Assembly (NCBI RefSeq): GCF_003344865.1
Contig: NZ_CP031165.1
Span: 1,054,001-1,118,000 of the forward strand
Origin: Euzebya pacifica
GTDB taxonomy: Bacteria > Actinomycetota > Nitriliruptoria > Euzebyales > Euzebyaceae
Direction of reading: 5' to 3'
Length of the DNA: 64,000 nt
Under the pieces are notes generated by a model, which was given only the letters and a program-made list of their open reading frames with translations, did not search any database and was not told the DNA's origin. Position numbers and translations under genes: made by a program. Below are positions 39,120 to 54,129 of the stretch, one piece after another; position 1 is the first letter of the stretch, and each line of letters begins with the position of its first letter.

Positions 39120-40177
39120 GCGAACGCGGACGCGGGGACCTGCAGGTGCACGTCGTCGTGCCCGACCGCGACGTCGACGTGGCCTTCACCGCCGAACCGG
39201 GCGAGGTCATCGGTGTCGTCGGCCCCTCGGGCGCCGGCAAGACCACCGTGCTGCGCGCCATCGCTGGGCTGGACCGGCCGCACGGGGGGACGGTCGCGCT
39301 CGGCGACGAGGTGTGGGACGACGGTGGCCGCCGACGGGTCGCCACGGCCGACCGCCGGGTCGGCCTGGTCCTCGCCGAACCGCTGCTGCTGCCCCACCTG
39401 GACGTGCGCACCAACGTCGCCATCGCCCTGGACGCCGGCGTCGGCGGGCCCGATGCGCTGGCCGACGCCGACGGATGGATCGATGCCCTCGGCCTCGGGG
39501 AGATCGGGCACCACCGGGCCGACACCCTCTCGACCGGTCAGGCCCAGCGGGTGTCGCTCGGCCGTGCGCTGGCGTCCGACCCGCGGGTCCTGCTGCTGGA
39601 CGAGCCGCTGGCGAACCTCGACATCCGGACCCGCGCCGAGGTCCGTCGCCTGCTGTCCACGGTGCTGCACCGGATCGAGGGGCCGACGGTGATCGTCACC
39701 CACGACCCGGTGGACGCCTACGCGCTGGCCGACCGCCTGGTGGTCGTCGAGGACGGCACGGTCAGCCAGGCCGGCGACCTCCGTGCGGTCACGCGGCGTC
39801 CACGGACGGACTGGGTTGCCGCGCTGGTCGGGCTGAACCTGTACCGGGGACGGGTCGAGGACGGACGCTTCCACCTCGACGACAGCGACCAGAGCCTGGC
39901 GGTGGCGACCGACGTCCGAGGCCCAGCCCTGGCCACGATCCTCCCGCGGGCGGTGTCGTTGCACCGGGGCCGTCCCAGCGGCAGCCCGCGCAACGTCTGG
40001 CACGGCGGCGTGGTGTCCGTCGACGGACGGGCCGGGCGAATGCGGGTGTCCATCGCCGGGCGCGTCCCGATCGTGGCCGAGGTGACGGCCACGGCAGTCG
40101 CCGACCTCGAGCTCGGTCGCGGCGGCGGGATCTGGGTGTCGGTGAAGGCCACCGAGATCGACGTGTTCGCCGACTGA
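39116..40177 (+). CDS. modC: molybdate ABC transporter ATP-binding protein with altered Q-loop
   Basis: ATPase of 353 residues that drives ModB. Walker A is GPSGAGKTT (36-44), the signature is LSTGQAQRVSLGRAL, Walker B is VLLLDEPLANLD and the switch His is in IVTHDPVDA. The Q-loop is unusual: RRVGLVLAEPLLLPH has Ala87 where ModC proteins have the conserved Gln. A C-terminal region of about 110 residues (TOBE-like, with RAVSLHRGRPSGSPRN) should bind oxyanion and regulate. The protein is complete, so this may be an active variant. Confidence 0.9.
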   Translation: MSERGRGDLQVHVVVPDRDVDVAFTAEPGEVIGVVGPSGAGKTTVLRAIAGLDRPHGGTVALGDEVWDDGGRRRVATADRRVGLVLAEPLLLPHLDVRTNVAIALDAGVGGPDALADADGWIDALGLGEIGHHRADTLSTGQAQRVSLGRALASDPRVLLLDEPLANLDIRTRAEVRRLLSTVLHRIEGPTVIVTHDPVDAYALADRLVVVEDGTVSQAGDLRAVTRRPRTDWVAALVGLNLYRGRVEDGRFHLDDSDQSLAVATDVRGPALATILPRAVSLHRGRPSGSPRNVWHGGVVSVDGRAGRMRVSIAGRVPIVAEVTATAVADLELGRGGGIWVSVKATEIDVFAD

Positions 40178-40184
40178 CAGGCCA

Positions 40185-40210
40185 GCGGCCGGGCGTCGAC
40201 GGTCGGCCGC
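40185..40210. terminator. possible bidirectional terminator
   Basis: GCGGCCG (40185-40191) and CGGCCGC (40204-40210) form a 7-bp stem with a 12-base loop between the convergent modC and lipoprotein genes. There is no T-run, so the call rests on position and stem only. Confidence 0.35.
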
Positions 40211-40225
40211 GGATCGCCCCGACGG

Positions 40226-40954
40226 TCAGCGCAGCGCCAGGTACGCCGGTTCGCTCGTCGCGAACGCGCGTCCCAGGACGATCACGGCGTCGCTGGTGAC
40301 GTCCACGCCCTGCCGGACCTCGTAGACGACGGTCCCGCGCTGTCGCTCGCCGGGCTTCATCTCCCCGCCCGGTCCCGGTGGTTCGTGCAACGTCGCCACC
40401 CGGACGTCGACGAACGTGCCGTCGGTCAGCAGCATCTCGGTGGAGAACGACGCGGAGAACGTCCGCGGCTCGGTCCCGAGGTGGTGCACCTCCATGTCCA
40501 GCCCCACGAAGCGACTGCCCTCCTCGGGGACCGAGATGGTGTTGACCGGTTCGAGCGGGTCGACGATCCCGTGGATGGTGACCTCCCAGCTGCCGCTCGT
40601 GGCGGGGGTTCCCAGCGGCACCGTCGGCAGGCTGAACGTCGGGCTGCCGGCGGAGTCGGCGGCCGCCGTGGCCGTGGGTGTGGCAGCGGCCGACTCCGGA
40701 GGGACCGTCGTCGCGTCGACCGGTTGGAGGCCGTCGTCGAGCTGCAGCTCGGGATAGACCTTGTCCTCGCCCTGCGGCTCCGTCGGCGAGTCCTGCGATC
40801 CTTGCTCGTCCTGCTGGGCCACGGCCGTGGGCGCGACCGATGCCGGTGCTGCCGCGTCGCCGCCACCGCCCCCGGCGCAGCCGGACAGCAACAGCGCCGC
40901 CACGAGGGCGGCGCCGACTGTTCGGGGGTCGGACACGATCGGCACCGACCCCAT
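40226..40954 (-). CDS. lipoprotein with DUF4352-like C-terminal domain
   Basis: Lipoprotein of 242 residues; the lipobox is LLLSGC with the Cys near residue 25, followed by a low-complexity Ala/Pro/Thr-rich linker to about residue 115. The C-terminal 125 residues start WEVTIHGIVDPLEPVN and continue FVGLDMEVHHLGTEPRTFSA, the immunoglobulin-like telokin form of DUF4352 proteins, which are often exposed on the cell surface with unknown roles. It is four bases downstream of the carboxylase alpha gene and probably cotranscribed. Confidence 0.75.
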   Translation of the reverse strand: MGSVPIVSDPRTVGAALVAALLLSGCAGGGGGDAAAPASVAPTAVAQQDEQGSQDSPTEPQGEDKVYPELQLDDGLQPVDATTVPPESAAATPTATAAADSAGSPTFSLPTVPLGTPATSGSWEVTIHGIVDPLEPVNTISVPEEGSRFVGLDMEVHHLGTEPRTFSASFSTEMLLTDGTFVDVRVATLHEPPGPGGEMKPGERQRGTVVYEVRQGVDVTSDAVIVLGRAFATSEPAYLALR

Positions 40955-40958
40955 CGTC

Positions 40959-42779
40959 CTACGCGTCGGCGATCGTGGCCAGCACGTCGCCGGAGTTGAC
41001 GACCGCCCCGGCCTCCACGGGCAGCGCGGTCACCGTGCCCGCCTTGTGGGCCTTGATGGCGTTCTCCATCTTCATGGCCTCCAGGACCACCACCAGGTCG
41101 CCCTCCTCGACCGTTGCGCCCTCCTCGACCGCGACCTTGACGATGGTGCCCTGCATGGGGGCGGCGAGGTCGTCGCCGCTGGCTGCCGCACCGCCGCTGC
41201 CGGACGATCCGCGCTTGCGCTTGGCCGTGGACGGCGCGGGTGCCGCTGCGGCGGCAAGGCCGCGCACGGTGACGGCCAGGCGCTTGCCGCCCACCTCGAC
41301 GGTGACTTCCTGCGCGGGCACGTCGTCGTCCTCCGCCGCACCGGGCATCGGGGCGACCGGGATGCCCGACAGGTCCCATTCCTTCTCCACCGAGATGGTG
41401 GCGGTGTTGGCCGTGATGAAGTCGTCGTGCTCGAAGGCCACGCGGAAGAAGTCCACCGTCGTCGGGACGCCCTCGATCTCCAGCTCGGTCAGCGCACGGA
41501 CCATGCGGCGACGGGCCTGCTCGCGATCGGACCCGGTGGTGATCAGCTTGGCGATCAGGGAGTCGTAGGACCGGGGGATCTCCCAGCCGGCCTCGCCGAC
41601 CCCGTCGACCCGCACGCCCGGGCCGGACGGGGCGCGCCAGCCCGTGATCAGGCCGGGGGAGGGGACGAAGCCCATGCCCACGTTCTCGGCGTTGATGCGG
41701 GCCTCGATCGAGTGGCCGGTCAGCTCGACGTCGTCCTGGGTCAGGGGCAGGGCCTCACCGGCCGCGATGCGCAGCTGCCACTCGACCAGGTCCATGCCGG
41801 TGACCTGCTCGGTGACCGGATGCTCCACCTGCAGGCGGGTGTTCATCTCCAGGAAGTAGAAGTCGCCGTCCCCCGCGCCCGGCGAGGACGCCGTCGCGGG
41901 GTCGTAGAGGTACTCGCAGGTGCCGGCCCCCGTGTAGCCGACCTGCTCGCTGACGCGGACGGCCGAGGCGCCCATCGCGGCGCGGACGGCATCCGACAGC
42001 CCGGGTGCGGGCGCCTCCTCGATCAGCTTCTGGTGCCGACGCTGCGTCGAGCAGTCGCGGTCACCCAGGTACAGGGTCGTCCCGTGGGTGTCGGCGAGGA
42101 CCTGGATCTCGATGTGCCGCGGGCGGCCCAGGTAGCGCTCGACGTAGACCTCGCCGCGGCCGAACGCCGCGACGGCCTCGCGCTGCGCGGAGTCCAGCGC
42201 CTCCTGCAGCTCGTTGTCGGCGTTGACGACCTTCATGCCGCGTCCGCCACCGCCGTAGGCGGCCTTGATGATCAGCGGGTAGCCGTGCTCGGCAGCGAAG
42301 GCCTTGACCTCCTCCGCGTCGTCGGTCGGCTCCATCATCCCCGGGACGAGCGGGCACTCGGCGGCCTTCGCGGCCTCACGGGCGCTCAGCTTGTCGCCCA
42401 TCTTCACGATCGACTGGGGCGGCGGGCCGATCCAGGTGACGCTGGCGTCGGTCATCGCCTGGGCGAAGTCGGCGTTCTCGCTGAGGAACCCGTAGCCGGG
42501 GTGCACCGACCGGGCACCCGACTGCTCGATGACCTCCACGATCCGCTCGGTGTTGAGGTAGGACTCCGCCGGGGCTGCACCACCCAGCAGGTAGGCCTCG
42601 TCGGCGTAGCGCAACCACGGAGCGTCGCGGTCCGCCTCGGAGTACACCGCCACGGTGGGCAGGCCGAGATCGCGGCACGTGCGGAACACACGCAGGGCGA
42701 TCTCCCCACGGTTGGCCACCAGAACCGGCCCGAGGGAGGCGAGCGCGGAGGAGGGGTTGGCGGATGCAGAAGCGGACAC
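40959..42779 (-). CDS. acyl-CoA carboxylase alpha subunit (biotin carboxylase + BCCP)
   Basis: Carboxylates biotin with ATP and bicarbonate for acetyl- or propionyl-CoA carboxylase. The 606 residues form a biotin carboxylase (about 15-465) with the ATP-grasp loop AAYGGGGRGMKVV, DCSTQRRHQKLIEEAPAP and FYFLEMNTRLQVEHPVTE, and a C-terminal biotinyl domain with the acceptor Lys in VLEAMKMENAIK. The size and layout match mycobacterial AccA3. The beta and epsilon subunits are at 55826 and 53878, and BirA, which biotinylates the Lys, is at 59744. Confidence 0.95.
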   Translation of the reverse strand: MSASASANPSSALASLGPVLVANRGEIALRVFRTCRDLGLPTVAVYSEADRDAPWLRYADEAYLLGGAAPAESYLNTERIVEVIEQSGARSVHPGYGFLSENADFAQAMTDASVTWIGPPPQSIVKMGDKLSAREAAKAAECPLVPGMMEPTDDAEEVKAFAAEHGYPLIIKAAYGGGGRGMKVVNADNELQEALDSAQREAVAAFGRGEVYVERYLGRPRHIEIQVLADTHGTTLYLGDRDCSTQRRHQKLIEEAPAPGLSDAVRAAMGASAVRVSEQVGYTGAGTCEYLYDPATASSPGAGDGDFYFLEMNTRLQVEHPVTEQVTGMDLVEWQLRIAAGEALPLTQDDVELTGHSIEARINAENVGMGFVPSPGLITGWRAPSGPGVRVDGVGEAGWEIPRSYDSLIAKLITTGSDREQARRRMVRALTELEIEGVPTTVDFFRVAFEHDDFITANTATISVEKEWDLSGIPVAPMPGAAEDDDVPAQEVTVEVGGKRLAVTVRGLAAAAAPAPSTAKRKRGSSGSGGAAASGDDLAAPMQGTIVKVAVEEGATVEEGDLVVVLEAMKMENAIKAHKAGTVTALPVEAGAVVNSGDVLATIADA

Positions 42780-43004
42780 GTGTCGACCCTTTCGACGGCT
42801 GAGCGGTCGTTCGCCGGGATGCTAGCGGTCGGACACCACGAGCCTTCAAGCGAGGGGCGGGCATGACCTCGCTTCGCGCCGGGCACCCTGTCCGTCGTAC
42901 CCTCCGCAGTCGGATATCTCCGTGCCGACCTCCGCGACGCTTCTGGTCGCGCCCGTTCGGTCACGCCCCGACTACTCACGCGTCCTGCAAGGAGTCACCA
43001 GACC

Positions 43005-43448
43005 ATGCGTCGCACGTCCATCGTCCTCGTCCTCGCCCTCGGCCTCTTCCTGACCGCGTGCAGCGCCCAGGAGCCCGAGGTCGTCCTGAACGAGCAGGTC
43101 CCCGCCGCGCAGGCGGTCGCCGAGGTTGCCGAAGGCGAAGAGGGCGAGCCCGCCGTCGAGGCCGACTTCGCCGCGGCCGAGGCCGTCTGGGTCGCCGAAC
43201 AGCTGGCCTTCACCAGCGCCCCGTCCAGCATGCCTGCCGATGAGGTCGTCATGGGCCTGCAGGTCATCGGTGGCCTCCCGCACAACGTCATCTTCGAGGG
43301 CCTCGAGGGCGACCGCGTCCTGGTCGACGGGCCCGGCGAGGGCGAGTTCGCGGCGGTCAACACCATCCCGGCTGGCACCTACACCTACTACTGCGGCATC
43401 CCCGGCCACCGTGCGGCCGGCATGGAGGGCGAGATCACGGTCGGCTAG
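43005..43448 (+). CDS. cupredoxin (plastocyanin-like) lipoprotein
   Basis: Exported copper protein of 147 residues. The lipobox is LFLTAC (Cys near residue 19), followed by an acidic linker to about residue 70. The copper domain has the ligands H in LPHNVIFEG and C, H, M in YYCGIPGHRAAGMEG, a type 1 blue-copper site. It is similar in form to the N-terminal domain of the multicopper oxidase at 28340 and could be an electron carrier. The 225-base gap before it shows nothing clear other than the ribosome site AAGGAG. Its last codons lie in a tandem repeat. Confidence 0.9.
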   Translation: MRRTSIVLVLALGLFLTACSAQEPEVVLNEQVPAAQAVAEVAEGEEGEPAVEADFAAAEAVWVAEQLAFTSAPSSMPADEVVMGLQVIGGLPHNVIFEGLEGDRVLVDGPGEGEFAAVNTIPAGTYTYYCGIPGHRAAGMEGEITVG

Positions 43449-43520
43449 CAGGCACGGTCAGCTGACGCCGACACGGTCGGCTGACGCCGGCACGGTCGGC
43501 TGACGCCGGCACGGTCGAGC
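43436..43520 (+). repeat. 19-bp tandem repeats across the cupredoxin stop codon
   Basis: Units CACGGTCGGCTGACGCCGG (19 bp) begin at 43453, 43472 and 43491; the first, shorter unit (43436-43452) contains the final codons and TAG of the cupredoxin gene. Each copy contains a TAG or TGA. The following 170 bases to the next start hold no recognisable gene; GTTCACC at about 43585 is the only motif-like element. Confidence 0.85.
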
Positions 43521-43689
43521 AGTGACCGGCGGCCTCTGAAGGTCGTTCATCGGTCGGCTGGGGGCAACCAGCCGGCCACCCTCGGTTCACCTGCCGTGGT
43601 TACCGTCCGGTAGGTGCGCGGTGGTCAGTCCGCCGCGAGCGTCCCGACCTCGCCCTGGGGTCGGGTTCTCCCTGCCCGAGGTGTTCGCC

Positions 43690-44721
43690 GTGCTGTCCCC
43701 GTTGCCCCTGTCTCGTGTTCGTCGCATCGGCCCGCCGCTGGTCGCGGTCGCCCTCGTCGTGGGCATCGTCCTCGGCGGAGTGGCGATCGCCCAGTCCGCG
43801 CCTGCGGCGGTCCGGCTGGACGGAACGGACCCGTCGAGCCACGCGATCGCGGTGTCGACGGCGGTCTTCGACGATGCCGGCGGTGCCGACACGACAGCAC
43901 GCCATGCGGTGCTCGGCCGCGACGACGACTTCGCCGACTCCCTGGCTGCCGGCCCCCTGCTGAACGGTGGGCCGTTGCTGTACGTGCCGGGCGGCGAGGA
44001 CGGCACGCTGCCTGGGCCCGTGGCCGCGGAGCTGCAGCGCATCCTGCCCCCTGCTGCTGACGTGTTCGTCGTCGGCGGGGTGGACGCCATCTCCGAGGAC
44101 ATCGCCACGGCCGTCGAGGACCTCGGCTATCACGTCGTTCGGCTCGCAGGGGAGGAGCGCACGGCGACCGCTGCGGCCATCGCCGACGAGGCGACCCGGA
44201 CCCACGGACCGGCCGACCGGGTGCTGGTCGCCCTGGCCGGCCGCTGGCCCGACGCCGTGGCCGGCGGTGCCCTTGCCGCCAGCGAACAGCTTCCGTTGTT
44301 GCTGACCGACGGCACCAGCGCCTCGACCGCCACCGTCGCGTGGCTGGATGCCCACCCAGACCACGAGGTCGTCGTGCTCGGCGGCCCCGCCGCCATCGAG
44401 GAATCGGTGTTCACGGCGCTCGGCGGCGACCGGCGGCTGACCGGCGAGACCCGTGCCCACACCGCCGCCGCCATGGTTGCCGAGTTCGGCGATGACGTCA
44501 CCGGCACCACGGTGATGCAGGGATTCGCCGACGACGGGTGGGTGCACGGCAACGCCGGCGCGGCCCTGCTGCAGCCGCTGCTGCTCAACGGCCCTGATGT
44601 CGACACGCTCAACAGCGTCGTCACGAGCGCGCTGGACGGGCGCACGGGCGAGCTGTTCGTGCTGGGGGGCACCGACCGGGTGGGCACCACCGCCCTGACC
44701 GCCGCCGAGGCCGCCCGCTGA
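43690..44721 (+). CDS. secreted protein with cell-wall-binding repeat 2 domains
   Basis: Protein of 343 residues with a membrane/signal helix (PPLVAVALVVGIVLGGVAI) and three CWB2-type repeats, for example HAVLGRDDDFADSLAAGPLL, VFVVGGVDAISEDIATAV and DHEVVVLGGPAAIEESVF. Nothing else is attached, so it is mostly a wall-binding module. GTG at 43690 is preferred because GAGG lies eight bases upstream; an in-frame GTG at 43621 would add 23 residues before the signal helix. The PhoD gene follows after 68 bases in the same direction. Confidence 0.8.
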   Translation: MLSPLPLSRVRRIGPPLVAVALVVGIVLGGVAIAQSAPAAVRLDGTDPSSHAIAVSTAVFDDAGGADTTARHAVLGRDDDFADSLAAGPLLNGGPLLYVPGGEDGTLPGPVAAELQRILPPAADVFVVGGVDAISEDIATAVEDLGYHVVRLAGEERTATAAAIADEATRTHGPADRVLVALAGRWPDAVAGGALAASEQLPLLLTDGTSASTATVAWLDAHPDHEVVVLGGPAAIEESVFTALGGDRRLTGETRAHTAAAMVAEFGDDVTGTTVMQGFADDGWVHGNAGAALLQPLLLNGPDVDTLNSVVTSALDGRTGELFVLGGTDRVGTTALTAAEAAR

Positions 44722-44789
44722 CCGCGGGCCCCGGCGACCCCCTCCCGCTCCTCCAGCACCGCACTCCTCCAGCACCGAAAGGACACATC

Positions 44790-46481
44790 GTGTCGACCAC
44801 CTGGACCCGCCGTTCCTTCATGTCCGCCGCAGCCGCCGCCGGGGTCGGCGGCCTGATGCTGCCCTACGGGGTCGGCATGCTGCGTGACGAGGCCGAGGCG
44901 CAGATGCAGCCACTCGGCGTGCGTTTCGACGCCTTCCCGTTCCCGCTGGGGGTCGCCTCCGGCGACCCGACCGCGGACAGCGTCATCCTGCAGACCCGGC
45001 TGTCGGACGCCCCGTTCGACCTCGACGCCCCGTGGGGGAACATCCCCGAGGACGTCGATGTCCACTGGGTCGTGGCCGAGGACGCTCGCCTGCGCCGCAT
45101 CGTGGCACAGGGCACCGTCGGCTCGTCGTCGACCCGAGGTCACGCCGTGCATGTCGACGTGACGGGCCTCGAGCCCGGGAAGGTCTACTGGTACCAGTTC
45201 GCCGCGCTCGGGGCCCGCTCTCGCATCGGGCGCACCAAGACCGCTGGCATCGCGCCGCTGCAGAGGCTGCGCATCGCCTACCTGTCGTGCCAGAGCTTCC
45301 CCCACGGCTACTTCACCGCCTACCAGAACCTTCTGGACGAGGACGTGGACGTCGTGTTCCACCTCGGCGACTACATGTACGAGTACGCCGATGGGGGCTA
45401 CGGCGACCTCCGCTCCAGCCCGCCGGTGGACCAGGTCTTCTCGCTGAACTCCTACCGGGTCCGCTACGCCGCCTACCGCGGGGACCCGTGGCTGCGCGCC
45501 TGCCACGCCCGCTTCCCGTTCATCACGACGTGGGACGACCACGAGATCGACAACAACTGGGCCGGGGAGACGCCGGAGAACACCAGCGACGAGGGCAACG
45601 CCACGCCGGCGGCCTACGCCGAACGGCGCTTCAACGCCTTCCAGGCGTATCACGAGAACCTGCCGATCCGGCCGGCCCCCGAGGACAACGCCATCGACGC
45701 GCCGGCGTACCAGATCTACCGCCAGTTCGTCTTCGGCGACCTGCTGGACGTCAGCGTCCTCGACACCCGCCAGTACCGGACCGACCAGCCGTGCGACGAC
45801 GGCTTCGTGACGGTCAACTGCGCCGACCAGGCCGACCCGGACGCCACGATCATGGGTCCCACACAGCGTGACTGGCTGTTCGGCAACCTGTCGACGTCGA
45901 CCGCGGCCTGGCGGGTCATCGCCCAGCAGCTGATCGTCTCGCAGGTCTCCTCGCTCGGGCTGTCCACACTGCTGCCCGACACCGGCGCCGGCCCCGCGCA
46001 GGGCGGGAACCTGTACTTCTCCGCCGACCAGTGGGACGGATACCTGGTCGAGCGGCAAGCGTTGATGAGCCACCTGGCCGACAACGCCATTCCCGACACC
46101 TTCGTCATCACCGGTGACATCCACTCCTCGTGGGTCCTCGACATGAAGGAGGACTTCGACGACCCCTCCTCGGCCACCGTGGGCACCGAGTTCGTCGGCA
46201 CGTCGGTCACGTCCCCCGGGTTCGAGCAGCTCGGCGGCAACGAGCCGTTCCGCACGGGCCTGTACGCCTCCAACCCGCACATGAAGTACCTCGAGGGAAC
46301 CCGCAAGGGCTACACGATCGCCGACATCACCCACGACGGGGTGACGGTGACCTACCGCGTCGTGGACACCATCGAGGAGAACCGTTCCGGGGTCTCCACG
46401 CAGTCGGAGTGGCTGCTGCCCCGAGGGGGCGCGGTCGAGCAGGTCGCCGGCGACAGCGTCAACCCGCTCAGCGGCGCGTAA
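44790..46481 (+). CDS. phoD: PhoD-type alkaline phosphatase/phosphodiesterase, Tat-exported
   Basis: Extracellular phosphatase of 563 residues. The Tat signal is TRRSFMSAAAAAGVGG. Family motifs are present: PLGVASGDPTADSVILQTRL near the N-terminus, YLSCQSFPHGYFTAYQNL, FHLGDYMYEY, WDDHEIDNNWAGE, VLDTRQYRTD and VITGDIHSSWVLD; these hold the metal-binding Asp, Asn and His residues. It releases phosphate from esters, including diesters such as teichoic-acid-like polymers. GTG start with GAAAGGA upstream. It lies near a second secreted phosphatase at 49870. Confidence 0.93.
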   Translation: MSTTWTRRSFMSAAAAAGVGGLMLPYGVGMLRDEAEAQMQPLGVRFDAFPFPLGVASGDPTADSVILQTRLSDAPFDLDAPWGNIPEDVDVHWVVAEDARLRRIVAQGTVGSSSTRGHAVHVDVTGLEPGKVYWYQFAALGARSRIGRTKTAGIAPLQRLRIAYLSCQSFPHGYFTAYQNLLDEDVDVVFHLGDYMYEYADGGYGDLRSSPPVDQVFSLNSYRVRYAAYRGDPWLRACHARFPFITTWDDHEIDNNWAGETPENTSDEGNATPAAYAERRFNAFQAYHENLPIRPAPEDNAIDAPAYQIYRQFVFGDLLDVSVLDTRQYRTDQPCDDGFVTVNCADQADPDATIMGPTQRDWLFGNLSTSTAAWRVIAQQLIVSQVSSLGLSTLLPDTGAGPAQGGNLYFSADQWDGYLVERQALMSHLADNAIPDTFVITGDIHSSWVLDMKEDFDDPSSATVGTEFVGTSVTSPGFEQLGGNEPFRTGLYASNPHMKYLEGTRKGYTIADITHDGVTVTYRVVDTIEENRSGVSTQSEWLLPRGGAVEQVAGDSVNPLSGA

Positions 46482-46517
46482 CGCCCGCGAAACGGGCCGG
46501 GCGTATCGTCGCCCGCC

Positions 46518-48062
46518 ATGGCCGCCTCCGACGTTCTTGCCTGGCAACAGGTCGACGTCGACGGCGTGCCCACGCGGTACGCCGTCGGAGGCGAGGGGCC
46601 ACCCGTGCTGTTCCTCCATGGCTGGGCGCTCGGCACGCGTGCCTATCGTCGACCGCTGCGTCGGCTGATCAGGCGCGGATGTCGGATCTACGCCCCGGCC
46701 CTGCCCGGCCTCGGGGGCACCGCTGATCTCGCGCCGCATGCCCGGACCGTCGCCGGCTACGGCTGGTGGGCGGCGCGCTTCCTTGCCTCGGTCGGCGTGT
46801 CCGAACCCGCGATCGTGATCGGCCACTCCTTCGGCGGCGCGGTCGCCATCGGCATGGCGCACGCCCAACCCGACATGGTGCAGTACCTGGTGCTGCTCAA
46901 CGCGGTGGGTGGCGGCCGCTGGTCGGGCATGGTGGGCGACAGCCGTCCGCTGGCCGACCGTCCGCTGTGGGACTGGGCCGTGCACTTCGCCCGCGAGGCG
47001 GTCGTCGCGACCACCGATGTGAAGGCCGTCCGCTCGGTGGTACCCGAGGTGGTGGGGAACCTGCTGCGCAACCCCAAGGGGGTCTGGCGGTCGGCCAACA
47101 TGGCCCGGCGGGCCAACCTGACCGCAGAGCTCGCGTGGCTGCGCTCGCGCCGGATTCCGGTCCTGGCGTTGACCAGCGATGCCGACTCCGTGATCCCCCA
47201 AGCCGCCTTCGAGGCGCTGTGTGCGGCAATCGGCACCGACGGACACGTCGTCGCCGGCCGGCACTCGTGGCTCCTGACCGATCCCGACTCGATGGGTGAG
47301 GTCCTGGCCAACGTCGTCGACGTGCAGGTGGCCGAGCACCGCGGCCGCACCAACGCCAGCCGCCTCGAGGCGCTCGAGGACCTGCTGTCCCAGACGCCGA
47401 TGTCGGTCGGGGACCGTCGTCGGCTGCTCGACGAGGCATCACCGCTGTGGTTGATGAGTGAGGACGAACGCACCCTCGCCGGGGACCTGGCGTTGTGCAC
47501 GCCGGCGCTGGAGGACGGCGAGGTCCGCGCGGTCGTGGTGCCGATCGAGGACAGCCGGTTGCTGCGGCTGACCGTCGTCGCCCACGACCGGCCGGGCCTG
47601 CTGGCCGACACGACCGCGATCCTGGCGGGGGAGGGCCTGTCGATCCTGGGCGCCACCGCGATCACCTGGTCACGGCTCGGTATGGCCCTGCACTCGTTGA
47701 CCGTCGAACCGGACGAGGACTTCTCGGTCCAGCGGTGGAACACCATCGGCGCGCGGCTGCAGCAGGCCGACGGCACGCCGGTGCCGGTGCCGACGCCGCG
47801 CTCGTCCGCCCCGGTCGTGCGCATCCACGGCGAGACCGAGGACCGAACCCTGGTCACCGTCGAGGCCGACGACCAGCTGGGCACGCTCGCGGCGATCTGT
47901 CGCTGGCTGGCTGACGAGGGCGCCACGATCGAGTCGTTGGGCACCCGCAGCGTCGGCGGCCGTGTCGTCGACAGCTTCGTGACCCGCGGCCGGGTCCCCA
48001 CCGGCATGCCCCGCCTGACGGGTCGCTACCGCTCCCCGCGGCAGCGCACGACCGCCGCCTGA
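46518..48062 (+). CDS. alpha/beta hydrolase fused to two ACT domains
   Basis: Protein of 514 residues with an unusual layout. Residues 1-270 are an alpha/beta hydrolase: oxyanion region FLHGWALG, nucleophile S104 in GHSFGG, acid near LTSDADSVIP and a C-terminal His in GRHSWLL. A helical linker (270-345, with LEALEDLLSQTPMS and LALCTPAL) resembles the region before the ACT pair of GlnD. Two ACT domains follow, starting LRLTVVAHDRPGLLADT (about 348) and LVTVEADDQLGTLAAI (about 443). Binding of an amino acid or nucleotide could control the hydrolase. Cytoplasmic; substrate unknown. Confidence 0.85.
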   Translation: MAASDVLAWQQVDVDGVPTRYAVGGEGPPVLFLHGWALGTRAYRRPLRRLIRRGCRIYAPALPGLGGTADLAPHARTVAGYGWWAARFLASVGVSEPAIVIGHSFGGAVAIGMAHAQPDMVQYLVLLNAVGGGRWSGMVGDSRPLADRPLWDWAVHFAREAVVATTDVKAVRSVVPEVVGNLLRNPKGVWRSANMARRANLTAELAWLRSRRIPVLALTSDADSVIPQAAFEALCAAIGTDGHVVAGRHSWLLTDPDSMGEVLANVVDVQVAEHRGRTNASRLEALEDLLSQTPMSVGDRRRLLDEASPLWLMSEDERTLAGDLALCTPALEDGEVRAVVVPIEDSRLLRLTVVAHDRPGLLADTTAILAGEGLSILGATAITWSRLGMALHSLTVEPDEDFSVQRWNTIGARLQQADGTPVPVPTPRSSAPVVRIHGETEDRTLVTVEADDQLGTLAAICRWLADEGATIESLGTRSVGGRVVDSFVTRGRVPTGMPRLTGRYRSPRQRTTAA

Positions 48063-48204
48063 CCAGCACCACGACTGACCAGCACGCCGTTTGACCGGTC
48101 ACCGTTCCCGGGGACGCAGGGCGGCATCCAAATCGTGCAGGAGGAGCAGCGGGCGCTGTCGAACAGGGAGGCGACATCCCCCAACGTCCAAGGAGCAACT
48201 CCGG

Positions 48205-49704
48205 ATGCGTGCACGCCTCGTCGTCCTCCTCGCCCTCCTCCTGCTGGGCAGCGTCGCTGTCCCCGCGGGGGCGATCGATGCCCTTTCAGCCGTTCGTGAC
48301 GAGACCGGTCCCGTCGACCTGCTGCAGCTCGACCAGCGGGTCCTGACGTCCGACAACGTCACCTACCACGGCACGATCCCGATCGACTCGCCCGGTGTGG
48401 GCGGTGAGGTCGTGCACCGCGCGGACCTCGACAAGACGTTCTTCTACGCCACCGGCGCCAAGGGCCTGTCGATCTACGACATCACCGACCCGGCCCTGCC
48501 GATCCTGGTCAGCACCTTCCCGTTCTGGCACGCCCAGAACGAGGACGTGCGGACCTCCGCCGACGGCACCATGGTGATGATCTCCGCCGACGGGTCCATC
48601 CTGGTCCCGATCGCCCCGCTGACGGTCGGTATCACGCTGATCGACGTCACCGACCCGGCCCTGCCCGAGATCGTGGCGTCCTCCAACGACCTCGTGATGG
48701 GACGCGGCACGAACCGCGGCATCGCCGAGCACACCTCGGAGTGCGCCGTCGACGACTGCTCGGTCATCTACGGACGGACCGGCCGCATCTACACGGTGGA
48801 CTTCGACGCGGGCACGATCACCCCGATCGAGCGGCGCTGGAACCAGTTCCTCGACCCGACGACCGGCAGCGTCCGCGAGACCAGCCAGATCCACGCGCTG
48901 GACCGTGACGAGTCCGGCCTGGTCATCGCCGACTCCACCCCGCGCCTGGTCCTGGACCCACTCGGCCTGTTCGAGCCGCTGTCCACCCCCGAGAACCCGG
49001 CGGTGCTGTCCATCGGCGAGCGTCCCGAGAACGACGACCGCCTGCAGCACAACAACCGTCGTCCCGGGGCGCTGGACTGGACGCCCCGTGACCCGGCCGA
49101 CCCGGCCGACGCCATCGAGACCCGGACCGTCACCGGGCGCGAGCGCAGCCTCTCCGAGCTCGACGACCGTCCGGTGCTGCGCGAGGGCGAGCTGCTGATC
49201 GGCAACTCCGAGTCCAACCTCAACACCGGCTGCAGCGAGGCCGGTGGCCTGAGCACCTGGAGCATGGCCAACTTCGACCAGGGCGCGGAGATGCAGCCGC
49301 TGGAGGTCTTCCGGCCGCTGAAGGGCACCTACGTCGACGGCAGCCCGCTGGTCAACGCGCTGGGCTGCTCGGGCCACTGGTTCACCATCCGTGACGGGGT
49401 CGTGGCCGCCAGCTGGTACGAGCACGGCATCCACTTCTTCGACATCGACATGGAGGTGGGCACGATCGACGAGGTCGGCTTCTTCCAGCCCATCGCCACC
49501 GAAGCCGGCGCCGCCTACTGGGTCGACGACAGCTTCGTGTACTCCGTGGACTACGCCCGCGGGATCGACATCGTCAGCTTCGACCGCGAGGCGGCAGCCC
49601 CGTCGCAGCTCGAGCTCGACAACGCCTGGCTGACCAACCTCGGCATCGTCGGATCGGTCGCGCCGAACGAACGTGCGTGGTGCCGCCTGGCCGCGACCGG
49701 CTGA
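48205..49704 (+). CDS. secreted LVIVD beta-propeller protein
   Basis: Exported protein of 499 residues: signal peptide LVVLLALLLLGSVAVPAGA, then LVIVD-type blades such as KGLSIYDITDPALPILVST and ITLIDVTDPALPEIVASS, later IHFFDIDMEVGTIDEVGFF. It resembles the propeller part of the protein at 18910 but has no CWB2 repeats. The ATG at 48205 follows AAGGAG at nine bases. A strong hairpin terminator lies just after the stop. The function is unknown; in this neighbourhood of secreted phosphatases it may bind a surface polymer or partner. Confidence 0.8.
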   Translation: MRARLVVLLALLLLGSVAVPAGAIDALSAVRDETGPVDLLQLDQRVLTSDNVTYHGTIPIDSPGVGGEVVHRADLDKTFFYATGAKGLSIYDITDPALPILVSTFPFWHAQNEDVRTSADGTMVMISADGSILVPIAPLTVGITLIDVTDPALPEIVASSNDLVMGRGTNRGIAEHTSECAVDDCSVIYGRTGRIYTVDFDAGTITPIERRWNQFLDPTTGSVRETSQIHALDRDESGLVIADSTPRLVLDPLGLFEPLSTPENPAVLSIGERPENDDRLQHNNRRPGALDWTPRDPADPADAIETRTVTGRERSLSELDDRPVLREGELLIGNSESNLNTGCSEAGGLSTWSMANFDQGAEMQPLEVFRPLKGTYVDGSPLVNALGCSGHWFTIRDGVVAASWYEHGIHFFDIDMEVGTIDEVGFFQPIATEAGAAYWVDDSFVYSVDYARGIDIVSFDREAAAPSQLELDNAWLTNLGIVGSVAPNERAWCRLAATG

Positions 49705-49725
49705 CCGACGCCCCCCGGTTCATCG

Positions 49726-49759
49726 GGCCCCGGCTGGATCACCTGATCCGGCCGGGGCC
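49726..49759 (+). terminator. strong hairpin terminator after the LVIVD protein gene
   Basis: A 15-bp stem with one G-U pair (GGCCCCGGCTGGATC, 49726-49740; GATCCGGCCGGGGCC, 49745-49759) and a 4-base loop, followed by TCGTTCGTTCGG. It starts 21 bases after the stop codon and separates this gene from the phosphatase gene. Confidence 0.75.
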
Positions 49760-49772
49760 TCGTTCGTTCGGT

Positions 49773-49805
49773 GTTCACCGAGCGTTCGTCGTGCGTCCGT
49801 AGGGG
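49773..49805 (+). promoter_or_regulatory. PHO-box-like direct repeats upstream of the phosphatase gene
   Basis: Three 11-base units in a row: GTTCACCGAGC, GTTCGTCGTGC and GTCCGTAGGGG. The first matches the actinobacterial PhoP direct-repeat consensus GTTCACC; the others are partial matches at the correct 11-base spacing. It lies 65 bases before the phosphatase ATG and would make the gene phosphate-responsive. Confidence 0.4.
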
Positions 49806-49869
49806 TGCGAGGGGCGGGTGGCGAACTCAAGGGGGAGACCGTTTCCGCCCTGCTCGAGGTACCCCGCCG

Positions 49870-51591
49870 ATGTCGTCCCGCCGCACGTTCCTTCGCCAGA
49901 TGCTCTCCGCCCCCGCGGGGCTGGCCCTGACCACCGGTGCCGGCGCCGCCCTTGCCGGCCCGGCCCGACCCGCGTTCGCCCAGGACGTCCCACCGCCGGA
50001 CGGCATCTGGAACCTGCTCCAGGAGCAGGTTCCCGCCTACGTCCAGCCCGGTGTCCCCCGCGGCGTCCAGCTGTCCTTCGCAGGCGACGACCTGTCCCGG
50101 CGGGCCGTGACCTGGCTGACCTCGGTGGAGGACCCCCGCAGCATCGTCCAGTGGGGCGTCGTCGGCGCCACCGCGGACACGAGCGAGCTGACCGCAGACG
50201 ACCTGACCCACGTGCAGGACGGCAGCAGCGAACGGGCGCCCTTCGGGGACGGTGCGGACTCCACGTACCTGTCCGCCAAGCGGGACAACGGGCCGGACGT
50301 CCACCACGGCGAACGGGAGGTGTTCGTGCACCGAGCGTCGCTGAGCGGGCTGCAGCCCGGACAGCGGATCGCGTACCGCGTCGGCGACGGGACCCGCTGG
50401 AGCGACATCGCGATCACCCGCGGGGGGCCGCTGGCCGACGAGGGCTTCCGGTTCACCCACGTCGGTGACCACGGGCCCAAGCTCGCGGCCCAGCGGACCA
50501 CCCGGGCGCTGCGTCGTCGCCAGCCCGACTGGCACCTCTTCGCCGGCGACCTCAGCTACGCCAACGGCGACCAGCGGATCTGGGACCTGTGGGCCGAGCA
50601 GTACAGCGTCATGGGCCGCGAGGTCCCGACGATGGTCGCGCCGGGCAACCACGAGTCCAAGGACTTCATGGGCCAGGCCTACCGCACGCGCTTCACCCAG
50701 CCGCGGCACGGCAGCTCGTTCTACGACTGGATCCACGGCAACGTCTTCATGATCTCCACCGCCGCCGGGGCGTTCTTCGGCGACGAGCGGGGAGCCATGG
50801 AGGACATCCGCCACGAGCTGGTCTGGATGGAGCACACGCTGGCCCGCGCCGCCGCGTTGCGTGCTGCCGGGATCATCGACTTCATCGTCGTCACCCAGCA
50901 CTTCCCCAGCTACACCGACCACCGCACCCGCGGGCCGATCTCGCCCGACCGGGTCGTCGTCGCCGAGCAGATCCTCCAGCGGTACCAGATCGACCTCCTG
51001 CTGGTCGGCCACGACCACATGTACCAGCGCTCCCACCCGATGGCGTACGGACTGCCGACGTCCACCGCCGGCTACACCAACACCCTCGCGCCGGTCCTCG
51101 GCCTCGAGCCGACCCGCCCCGAGCGCTACAGCAACGCCACCGGATACATCGAGGTCATCGCCGGCTCCGGCGGCAACGGCATGTACGACTTCACCGAGAT
51201 CGACACCCTGCAGCTCGGGGTCGACCCGGAGATGCCGCCGCAGCGCCACCTGCCCTGGCTGGCCGCGTCCGCTCGCGAGCTGTGCTTCGTGGAGTACGAC
51301 GTGCGCGGACCGGAGATGGCGGTGACGGGGTTCGTGTTCGACGACGGATACGACGAGAACCGCGGCGACGGCATCCCCGACAACGAGCCCGGCTACAACG
51401 GTGACGACCCACGGTTCCTCGCCGACGCCGACCCCGAGCCGTTCGACACCTTCACGCTGGTCCGCAAGGCCTACGCCGAGGAGGTGCCGACCGTGCCGCG
51501 GCTGGCGGCGGAGATCCTGCGCGAGCTGCCCGAGGCCCACGGCGAGCTGCGCTACGACGTCGCGGAGGACTGCACGACCCACGACCACTGA
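49870..51591 (+). CDS. purple-acid-phosphatase-like metallophosphoesterase, Tat-exported
   Basis: Secreted enzyme of 573 residues. Tat signal SRRTFLRQMLSAPAGLAL; a fibronectin-like N-terminal domain (about 50-190), then the metallophosphoesterase core with HVGDHG, LFAGDLSYANGDQ, MVAPGNHES, VTQHFPSYTDH and LVGHDHMYQR, which hold the dimetal ligands. A C-terminal region with NRGDGIPDNEPGYNGDDPRF looks like a calcium-type Asp-rich loop. It hydrolyses phosphate esters outside the cell. ATG at 49870 has GAGGT eight bases upstream. Isolated on its own transcript by the terminator before it. Confidence 0.92.
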   Translation: MSSRRTFLRQMLSAPAGLALTTGAGAALAGPARPAFAQDVPPPDGIWNLLQEQVPAYVQPGVPRGVQLSFAGDDLSRRAVTWLTSVEDPRSIVQWGVVGATADTSELTADDLTHVQDGSSERAPFGDGADSTYLSAKRDNGPDVHHGEREVFVHRASLSGLQPGQRIAYRVGDGTRWSDIAITRGGPLADEGFRFTHVGDHGPKLAAQRTTRALRRRQPDWHLFAGDLSYANGDQRIWDLWAEQYSVMGREVPTMVAPGNHESKDFMGQAYRTRFTQPRHGSSFYDWIHGNVFMISTAAGAFFGDERGAMEDIRHELVWMEHTLARAAALRAAGIIDFIVVTQHFPSYTDHRTRGPISPDRVVVAEQILQRYQIDLLLVGHDHMYQRSHPMAYGLPTSTAGYTNTLAPVLGLEPTRPERYSNATGYIEVIAGSGGNGMYDFTEIDTLQLGVDPEMPPQRHLPWLAASARELCFVEYDVRGPEMAVTGFVFDDGYDENRGDGIPDNEPGYNGDDPRFLADADPEPFDTFTLVRKAYAEEVPTVPRLAAEILRELPEAHGELRYDVAEDCTTHDH

Positions 51592-51670
51592 CCCGGGCGG
51601 TGGCCCGGTGGGGGAGGCGGGTCGAACGGACATGGGTGACGGTCGGGCCCCCGCGGGCACACTGCCGCCC

Positions 51671-51931
51671 ATGAGCGACTACCAGCGGGCCGTTGACCAC
51701 ATGAACGCCGACCACGCCGACGCGCTGGTCGACATCGTCCGCCACGTCACGGGCATGCACGTGACCGGCGTGACCATCACCTCGATGGACGACCGGGGGT
51801 TCGACGTGGAGATCGTCGACGACGACACCACCGGCACCGCCCGCATTCCGTTCCCCGACGGGCCGATCGACCCCTCGGCGGTCCGGCAGGTCATGGTGGA
51901 CATGACCCGCCGGGCCCGCGACGAGGCCTGA
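51671..51931 (+). CDS. DUF2470-family small protein
   Basis: Protein of 86 residues with MNADHADALVDIVRHVTG at the start, the DUF2470 signature found at the C-terminus of heme-utilisation and PNPOx-like proteins. Here it stands alone. It begins 79 bases after the phosphatase and ends eight bases before the convergent ABC permease gene. Family members are linked to heme or flavin handling; a stand-alone role is unknown. Confidence 0.8.
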   Translation: MSDYQRAVDHMNADHADALVDIVRHVTGMHVTGVTITSMDDRGFDVEIVDDDTTGTARIPFPDGPIDPSAVRQVMVDMTRRARDEA

Positions 51932-51939
51932 CCCCGACC

Positions 51940-52746
51940 TCAGCCGCGTTCGGTGGTCCGCTGGTACTGCCGGGCCGACAACGGCACGAAGATCGCCAGG
52001 ATGATGCCGACCCAGATGAGGGTGTAGAGCACCGGGTGCTGCAGCGACCACACGTCGGGGGCGGGGAAGCTGCTGGCCGTGTTGCCGAACAGCTCCCTCG
52101 CCGCTTGCGTCACCGACGACACCGGATTCCACTCCGCGAAGTGTCGTAGCGGCGTGGGCAGGTTGTCGGACGGCACGAAGGTGTTGGCGATGAAGGTCAG
52201 CGGGAAGATGACCATGAACGAGGCGTTGTTGACGACCTCGGGTGAGGGGACCAGCAGGCCGACCCACGCCATCATCCAGGACACGGCGTAGGCGAAGGCC
52301 AGCAACAGCAGGAACCCGCCGATGGCCTCCAGCGGTGTGCTGCGGATGCGCCAGCCGATGATCAGGCCGGTCACCGACATCACGATGATGACCAGGACGT
52401 TGTTGACCACGTCGCTGGCGGTCCGGCCGGCGAGCACCGCCGAGCGGGACATCGGCAGCGACCTGAACCGGTCGATGATGCCCTTCTGCAGGTCCTCGGC
52501 CAGACCGGCCCCGGTGATGGTGGCACCGAAGATGACCGTCTGGGCGAAGATGCCCGCCATCAGGAACTCGCGGTAGTCGACCCCGGGCGGTGAGATCGAC
52601 CCACCGAACACGTAGGCGAACAGCAGCACGAACATGATCGGGCTGAGCAGGGTGAAGACCAGCAGGTCGGGGACCCGCTTGATCTTGATGAGGTTGCGGC
52701 GGGCGACGATGCGCGAGTCGCGGAACGTTCGGGCGACGGAGCTCAT
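51940..52746 (-). CDS. ABC-2 type permease, DrrB-like
   Basis: Membrane subunit of 268 residues with six helices; the ABC-2 region contains LVFTLLSPIMFVLLFAYVFG and a long central loop GIIDRFRSLPMSRSAVLAGR, the amphipathic coupling helix of DrrB/ABC-2 exporters. Its ATG overlaps the stop of the ATPase gene (ATGA), so the two make one exporter for a drug, lipid or polyketide-like molecule. No biosynthetic cluster is adjacent. Confidence 0.9.
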   Translation of the reverse strand: MSSVARTFRDSRIVARRNLIKIKRVPDLLVFTLLSPIMFVLLFAYVFGGSISPPGVDYREFLMAGIFAQTVIFGATITGAGLAEDLQKGIIDRFRSLPMSRSAVLAGRTASDVVNNVLVIIVMSVTGLIIGWRIRSTPLEAIGGFLLLLAFAYAVSWMMAWVGLLVPSPEVVNNASFMVIFPLTFIANTFVPSDNLPTPLRHFAEWNPVSSVTQAARELFGNTASSFPAPDVWSLQHPVLYTLIWVGIILAIFVPLSARQYQRTTERG

Positions 52747-53738
52747 CGGGAGGCCTCCTGCGTGGTGGTGGCGGCGTCGCCGCCGGTCTCGGGGGTCGTC
52801 TCGGCGCGGTGGCCGGTCAGCGTCAGGAAGACGTCGTCGAGGGTGGGTCGACGCAGGCCGAAGTCCAGCACCGCGATGCCCGCGTCGTCGAGGCCGTCGA
52901 GCAGCCGACGCAACGACGAGGCGCCGTCGGCAACCTGGGCGGTCAGCAGGCGGGACTGAGGAGTCACCCGCACCTCGCCGACGGCGTGGGTGGCCAGCAC
53001 CGCGCGGGCACGGTCGACCTCCTCGGGTCGTTCGACGGTGACCTCGGCTCGTTCGCCGCCGACCTGGGCCTTCAGCTGGTCGGCATCGCCCTGGGCGATG
53101 ATGCGGCCGTGGTCCATCACGACGATGTCGTCGGCCAGCTTGTCGGCCTCCTCCAGGTACTGGGTGGTCAGCAGGAGGGTGGCGCCGCCGCCGACCAGCT
53201 CGCGGATCACGTCCCACAGCTCGATGCGGGCGCGCGGGTCGAGGCCGGTGGTCGGCTCGTCCATGAACAGGACCGGCGGCCGGGCGACCAGCGCCGCGGC
53301 GAGGTCCAGCCGGCGACGCATGCCGCCGGAGTAGGTCTTGATGATCCGGGCGCCGGCGTCGGTCAGGGAGAACTGGGCCAGCAGCTCGGTCGCACGGGAC
53401 TTCGCCTCCGAGCGGGACATGCCGTACAGCTCGCCGACCATCTGCAGGTTCTCGACCCCGGTCAGGTACTCGTCGACCGCGGCGGACTGGCCCGACAGGC
53501 CGATCAGCTCGCGAACGCCCGACGGGTTCGACAGCAGATCCACCCCGGCGATCGTGGCGCGGCCGGCGTCGGGCTTCAGCAGCGTGGACAGGATCCGAAC
53601 CGCGGTCGTCTTGCCGGCGCCGTTGGGTCCGAGGACCCCCTGCACGGTGCCCTCGGGGACCGACAGGTCGATGCCGGCCAGGGCCGTGACGTCGCCGTAG
53701 GACTTGGCCAGGCCCTCGGCGTGGATCATCGCCTCCAT
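52743..53738 (-). CDS. ABC transporter ATPase, DrrA-like
   Basis: ATPase of 331 residues for the ABC-2 permease. Walker A GPNGAGKTTAVRIL, Q-loop IGLSGQSAAVDEYLTG, signature YSGGMRRRLDLAAALV, Walker B VLFMDEPTTGLDP and switch TTQYLEEADKLAD; the Gln-for-His in TTQYLEEAD is the normal state in DrrA proteins. A C-terminal domain of about 90 residues with GLRRPTLDDVFLTLTGH is also DrrA-typical. The Met at 53738 or at 53729 could be the start. Gene pair in the order ATPase then permease. Confidence 0.92.
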   Translation of the reverse strand: MEAMIHAEGLAKSYGDVTALAGIDLSVPEGTVQGVLGPNGAGKTTAVRILSTLLKPDAGRATIAGVDLLSNPSGVRELIGLSGQSAAVDEYLTGVENLQMVGELYGMSRSEAKSRATELLAQFSLTDAGARIIKTYSGGMRRRLDLAAALVARPPVLFMDEPTTGLDPRARIELWDVIRELVGGGATLLLTTQYLEEADKLADDIVVMDHGRIIAQGDADQLKAQVGGERAEVTVERPEEVDRARAVLATHAVGEVRVTPQSRLLTAQVADGASSLRRLLDGLDDAGIAVLDFGLRRPTLDDVFLTLTGHRAETTPETGGDAATTTQEASR

Positions 53739-53877
53739 GGCGTGCGCTTTCGCTGGGTGCTCATGGTCGACACGCTAGCCGCGCCGGGTGACACCGAGGG
53801 TGCCGAGGGTGTGCCCCTGCTGACAGGAACGTGTCAGGAGACCGGCTGTCCGGCTACGGGTGGCCCGCAGGCCGGAA

Positions 53878-54129
53878 TCAGGTGGCGGCGGACGGCAGCG
53901 CGCCGGTGGAGCGGTGGGTCAGGCGCGGGTCGTTGGAGGCGACGAACGGGGTCTGCCCGACCGCCTCGAAGCGGGCGGCGCGGGCCCACGCCGGAGCCCG
54001 ATGGACCGGCGCCGGTGCGCCGGCGGTCCCGAGGCCCAGGACCGCCACGGTCACGGCCGCGATCTCCTCGTCGGTGGGGTTGCCCGCCGTGACGTGGATG
54101 GTGACCGAAGGGGTGTCGTCGCTGCTCAC
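53878..54129 (-). CDS. accE: acyl-CoA carboxylase epsilon subunit
   Basis: Small subunit of 83 residues. The N-terminal motif VTIHVTAGNPTDEEIAAVTV matches the actinobacterial epsilon family (RGNPTPEE consensus), and a Trp in HRAPAWARAARFE lies near the conserved C-terminal site. In mycobacteria and streptomycetes this subunit binds the beta subunit and raises activity of the propionyl/acetyl-CoA carboxylase. The beta gene lies 1.7 kb away on the same strand with two unrelated genes between, instead of directly adjacent as in mycobacteria. Confidence 0.85.
   Translation of the reverse strand: MSSDDTPSVTIHVTAGNPTDEEIAAVTVAVLGLGTAGAPAPVHRAPAWARAARFEAVGQTPFVASNDPRLTHRSTGALPSAAT

Follow-up and report, generated by a model that had tools for sequence, protein, structure and literature searches.

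The gene considered here lies in a stretch of 64,000 nucleotides, referred to throughout as the window, from a genome that is assembled in two contigs (G000). It begins with an ATG at 46518 and ends with a stop codon at 48062, with 514 codons and no internal stop between them, and it is a real gene for an alpha/beta hydrolase that is joined, through a helical connector, to a pair of ACT domains. An initial annotation, made from the sequence alone, had arrived at the same domain description and coordinates, both of which agree with the Pfam, NCBIfam and open reading frame checks reported below. The features are collected in Table 1.

Table 1. Features of the fused gene, its upstream neighbour and a divergent fusion from another genome.
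Feature	Position	Strand	Basis or remark
PhoD-like phosphatase	44790..46481	+	Context, outside the proposed system; 36 bases upstream of the fusion; adjoins the fusion otherwise only in G002
Whole fused gene (514 aa; alpha/beta hydrolase, helical connector, ACT, ACT)	46518..48062	+	Pfam and NCBIfam profiles; conserved in seven further genomes
Alpha/beta hydrolase domain, residues 1-270	46518..47327	+	Pfam Abhydrolase_6/_1; standalone orthologues end at ~270-285
Ser104 nucleophile codon (GHSFGG)	46827..46829	+	Orthologue alignments; Ala in the G879 fusion
Asp223 codon, triad acid	47184..47186	+	Alignments
His249 codon, triad	47262..47264	+	Alignments; Ala in G879
Helical connector, residues 271-345	47328..47552	+	Matches the N-terminus of standalone ACT-ACT proteins
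ACT domain 1, residues 346-425, loop motif DRPGLL	47553..47792	+	Pfam ACT, alignments
ACT domain 2, residues 426-495, loop motif DQLGTL with Gly kept	47793..48002	+	Pfam ACT, alignments
G879 fusion, substituted Ser, His and oxyanion motif	L140:8698-10737		Alignments

The hydrolase and the surroundings of the gene

Membership of the alpha/beta hydrolase superfamily is indicated by two Pfam profiles, both above their curated cut-offs: Abhydrolase_6 at residues 30-257 (E 1.5e-14; 55.6 bits against 26.3) and Abhydrolase_1 (E 2.8e-12; 47.3 bits against 25.8). The nucleophile, which had been read as intact, is indeed so; it sits in a GHS104FGG elbow and, aligned across 19 relatives, forms a complete triad with Asp223 and His249. 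These residues, together with an oxyanion motif HGW at positions 34-36, are conserved in the orthologues. The NCBIfam models for particular substrates score far lower than their cut-offs (BioH, 38.8 against 207; PcaD, 27.6 against 256; MenH, 24.8 against 209), and for this reason we leave the substrate class unassigned. The best solved relatives are meta-cleavage-product (MCP) hydrolases (4lxg, E 5e-12). BioH, PcaD and the MCP hydrolases share the fold and the Ser-Asp-His triad with the window hydrolase, but have no counterpart of its C-terminal connector and ACT pair. The window protein would be a cytoplasmic serine hydrolase of the esterase, thioesterase or C-C hydrolase type.

The initial annotation had advised a check on whether the gene is conserved beside phosphatases. 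This does not hold beyond the congener G002: the PhoD-like gene is absent from the other fused and split loci examined, and a purple-acid-type phosphatase 3' of the window fusion is not present in G002 and belongs to the window genome only. A functional link to the two phosphatases was rejected because the adjacency is limited to the window genome and G002 for PhoD, and to the window genome for the other. At the other fused and split loci examined the neighbours are unrelated, the sole recurring partner being an ACT-ACT protein, which is described below. Two minor observations concern the flanks. The 36-base spacer that separates the fusion from the PhoD gene (46482-46517) folds into a pair of neighbouring G+C-rich hairpins immediately ahead of the ATG, with a folding energy of -20.6 kcal/mol over a 50-nt stretch; these hairpins are only partly kept in G002, and a search of positions 40000-54000 of the window against Rfam gave no matches. 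On the 3' side, positions 48199-49704 encode a 501-aa protein without a Pfam match that is 95% identical in G002.

The connector and ACT pair in relation to GlnD

The Pfam ACT profile matches two stretches of the protein (E 9.9e-12 and 44.9 bits for the whole protein, against a cut-off of 27), and both have the glycine of the beta1-alpha1 loop (Gly360 and Gly455); the ACT motifs that had been recognized from the sequence alone are thus upheld by profile search. Residues 298-490 match GlnD models in their C-terminal parts only, with E 2.3e-12 for PRK03381 and with a match to TIGR01693 that spans model positions 618-825 (~600-830) of 850, in keeping with the GlnD-like helical region and ACT pair described initially. 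The order and spacing are those of the GlnD C-terminus, where helices that follow the HD domain are succeeded by two ACT domains. The protein as a whole is nevertheless not a GlnD: it scores 38-46 bits against model cut-offs of 519-631, and the nucleotidyltransferase and HD domains that precede this region in GlnD are missing, residues 1-270 being the hydrolase instead. A single-sequence structure prediction of the window protein reached a pLDDT of 38 and has been left out of the argument.

The loop glycine occupies a ligand-contact position in the 3-phosphoglycerate dehydrogenase (PGDH) of E. coli and is kept in ACT domains of the GlnD type (PMC3173338). It is retained in both ACT domains of all eight fusions known to us from the genomes searched. 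The ACT1 loop, DR.GLLAD, is invariant in the fusions and in nearly all standalone relatives of the tail (that is, the connector and ACT pair). The ACT2 loop is degenerate, with DQLG in place of DRPG in most fusions; lacking the Arg and Pro, its pocket may differ from that of GlnD. Conservation peaks in the second half of the connector (residues 301-345), where 18 of 45 columns are invariant among five divergent fusions, compared with 24% of the hydrolase columns.

It was originally suggested that the ACT part had been taken from GlnD. What survives of this is the likeness: the tail is GlnD-like and is sister to the GlnD C-termini. It was not lifted straight from GlnD, however, and belongs to a family of standalone ACT-ACT proteins of its own. 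When fused and standalone tails were placed in one tree with the tails of GlnD, this family was separated from the latter with support of 100/99 and did not fall inside the GlnD clade; identity between the two sides is ~26-33%. A complete, separate GlnD is encoded in G000 at C1:4517089-4519470 and scores above the model cut-off, which argues against a displaced GlnD function and rules out a displaced or fragmented GlnD. A recent copy of that same GlnD is likewise ruled out, by 26% identity and the separate clade. A search of the G000 genome found no second tail of this kind.

Fused, split and substituted forms

Other genomes were searched for the fusion, as the initial annotation had advised, and it was found in seven besides the window genome: G002, G517, G670, G799, G879, G950 and G1007. 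The intact fusion in G002, which is 94% identical to the window protein and has the same gene order, excludes a frameshift or assembly fault in the region. Comparison of G000 with G002 by the NG86 method gave dN/dS values of 0.028/0.51 for the hydrolase, 0.031/0.34 for the connector, 0.024/0.39 for ACT1 and 0.024/0.35 for ACT2, and these ratios (~0.05-0.09) indicate that purifying selection acts on all four parts. Neither G001 nor G003, which also belong to the genus, has a close relative of the hydrolase or the tail. The remaining six fusions come from another class of the same phylum. BLAST identities to the window protein are ~49% (G517), 50% (G799), 49% (G670) and 38% (G879); between G000 and G517 they are distributed as 57% for the hydrolase, 44% for the connector, 45% for ACT1 and 37% for ACT2. 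A short-peptide-pattern scan of 84,980 genomes returned a distant hydrolase only, and plasmid records gave matches to the hydrolase with no fusion among them.

Both parts also occur alone. The hydrolase is found without ACT domains in dozens of genomes of the class and the phylum, at 40-52% identity and ending at ~270-285, and most relatives of the window genome within its class have it without the tail. A profile of the fused tails recovers the connector and ACT pair as proteins of ~250-300 aa; since the N-terminus of these proteins is the connector, the latter belongs to the ACT-ACT protein and is not a linker made by fusion. Such standalone tail proteins also occur without an adjoining hydrolase. 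In three genomes, the ACT-ACT gene lies directly 3' of a standalone hydrolase gene, with stop and start codons overlapping by one base (TAATG, in G782 and G812) or by four (ATGA, in G847). The overlap predicts translational coupling of the two genes, and makes the fusion readable as a joined operon.

There is also a tendency for the two parts to be found in the same genomes. In the order of G670, 10 of the 17 genomes with a strong hydrolase match have a tail match as well, whereas a tail match is found in 18 of 397 genomes overall. The thresholds were strict (E up to 1e-84 for the hydrolase and up to 1e-22 for the tail), and the comparison is indicative only, the samples being unequal in size and the genomes related. 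The other seven of the 17 hydrolase genomes have no tail match at E up to 1e-22 and, taken with the class relatives that lack the tail, they imply that the hydrolase can work without it. The occurrence of fused and split forms, a 'Rosetta stone' pattern, is nonetheless strong genomic evidence that the hydrolase and the ACT pair work together.

The phylogenetic trees are consistent with a single origin of the fusion. Fused tails form one group (87/84) in a tail tree that includes the standalone relatives, and the fusions are grouped once in the hydrolase tree (92/90, or 100/100 in a smaller set). Within the tail tree, the fusions of the window genus nest inside those of the other class, so that a transfer of the fusion between classes is likely.

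The triad is retained in seven of the eight fusions, the exception being that of G879, where Ser104 and His249 have both become Ala and the HGW motif HAA. The connector and ACT1 of this protein are well kept, and its end branch measures ~2.9 changes per site in the hydrolase against 0.76-1.07 in the tail. This sequence, from one draft assembly, suggests that the role of the tail can outlive catalysis; a tail kept beside a dead-looking hydrolase implies that catalysis is not always the point.

Several further observations were made at these loci. In G782 and G812 a gene for a wax-ester synthase/DGAT adjoins the split operon (L160:9631-11055 and L161:3097-4584), and another lies ~7 kb from the hydrolase locus of G425; the adjoining cases, from two species of one genus, are no more than a hint at a link to storage-lipid metabolism. 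In G670, a divergent single-ACT protein of ~200-270 aa is encoded right beside the fusion (L137:7044-7853), and urease genes (UreC and UreG-type) are found a few kb away. A link between urease and the fusion was rejected, as the arrangement was seen in this one genome only.

Possible modes of action

GlnD is held to sense glutamine via its C-terminal ACT domains (PMC3173338, PMC12702975), and plant ACR11 has been reported to bind the partner enzymes GS2 and Fd-GOGAT (PMC12702975, PMC3173338), although its mechanism is disputed (PMC12702975). ACR11 and ACR12 are two-ACT proteins that resemble the GlnD tail, as do the standalone tails described here, and they provide a model for the split form; they differ in being plastid proteins with unrelated partner enzymes and no hydrolase.

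A second precedent is the regulation of a catalytic domain by C-terminal ACT domains, as in 3-phosphoglycerate dehydrogenase, aspartate kinase and prephenate dehydratase. The position of the ACT domains after the catalytic domain is the same in the window protein, but those enzymes belong to amino-acid biosynthesis and respond to its end products, whereas the catalytic part here is a serine hydrolase. To our knowledge, ACT domains occur mostly on enzymes of amino-acid biosynthesis, and GlnD-type pairs on GlnD. The initial annotation knew of no well-described enzyme with the present layout, and none of the open papers that turned up in our searches describes an alpha/beta hydrolase under ACT regulation. 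Both parts are of known kinds; as far as we can tell, there is no earlier account of the way they are combined, of a family of standalone tails, or of the series of split, fused and dead forms.

On balance, we favour a scheme in which a serine hydrolase is under the allosteric control of an ACT pair whose ligand is a small molecule, in all likelihood an amino acid, and in which the fusion arose once. The ancestral state would probably have been two proteins, encoded by overlapping genes of one operon and presumably binding each other; they would have been joined into one chain just once, in a lineage that includes the window genome. A ligand would bind at the interface of ACT1 and ACT2, and the signal would pass through the conserved connector (residues 301-345) to the hydrolase, much as the ACT pair of GlnD relays glutamine status to its catalytic domains. 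We infer, in part by analogy, contact between the two parts, allostery, an amino acid as the ligand and the direction of control. That glutamine itself is the ligand is possible but doubtful. A broader version, put forward more tentatively than the scheme itself, is that a GlnD-type ACT-ACT protein that binds an amino acid, fused or co-translated, gates the serine hydrolase according to nitrogen or amino-acid status and so links nitrogen status directly and allosterically to acyl or ester metabolism, and that in one lineage the hydrolase has lost catalysis and turned into a sensor or scaffold.

ACT domains commonly dimerize, and the pair might instead be a structural or oligomerization module that stabilizes or shapes the hydrolase and binds no ligand. 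The degenerate ACT2 loop and the lower identity of ACT2 in the G000-G517 comparison would fit such a role. It is made unlikely by the invariance of the ACT1 loop and the retained glycine of the ACT2 loop, and by the persistence of standalone tails where no hydrolase adjoins them. Less probable again is an arrangement in which the hydrolase fold is the sensor, with a ligand bound or slowly turned over, and the connector and ACT pair act as output on a third partner. The hydrolase-fold hormone receptors of plants use a hydrolase as receptor in this way, and the substitutions and long hydrolase branch of G879 point in the same direction; against this, one fusion in eight looks dead, and that one is known from a draft, while the other seven have the triad. 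It is very improbable that the tail takes part in PII/nitrogen signalling by binding PII or GlnD, as a decoy or partner of GlnD to which the hydrolase is attached as a passenger: the sister relationship to GlnD C-termini and the presence of GlnD in G000 are outweighed by the well-supported separation and low identity of the two families, by the missing nucleotidyltransferase and HD domains, and by a gene overlap that couples the tail to the hydrolase and not to glnB or glnD. Finally, a chance read-through or assembly artefact joining two genes has a negligible probability and is ruled out by the recurrence of the fusion in eight genomes of two classes, with low dN/dS on either side of the junction.

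If the allosteric scheme is correct, the direct sensing of nitrogen or amino acids would extend to a new class of enzyme, the serine hydrolases. The split, fused and apparently dead forms offer three natural constructs with which to probe how an ACT pair transfers its signal.

A further arrangement was noted during this work. In two genomes, a Na+/H+ exchanger (Pfam Na_H_Exchanger) is fused to a GlnD-like region that runs from the HD part through both ACT domains, giving a protein of ~1012 aa (G893, L172:2330-5365; G843, L158:1-2244; 50% identical to each other). In G893 the gene is divergent from a standalone tail gene. The exchanger fusion adds another instance, after the hydrolase, in which a sensor module of the GlnD type is attached to an unrelated protein.
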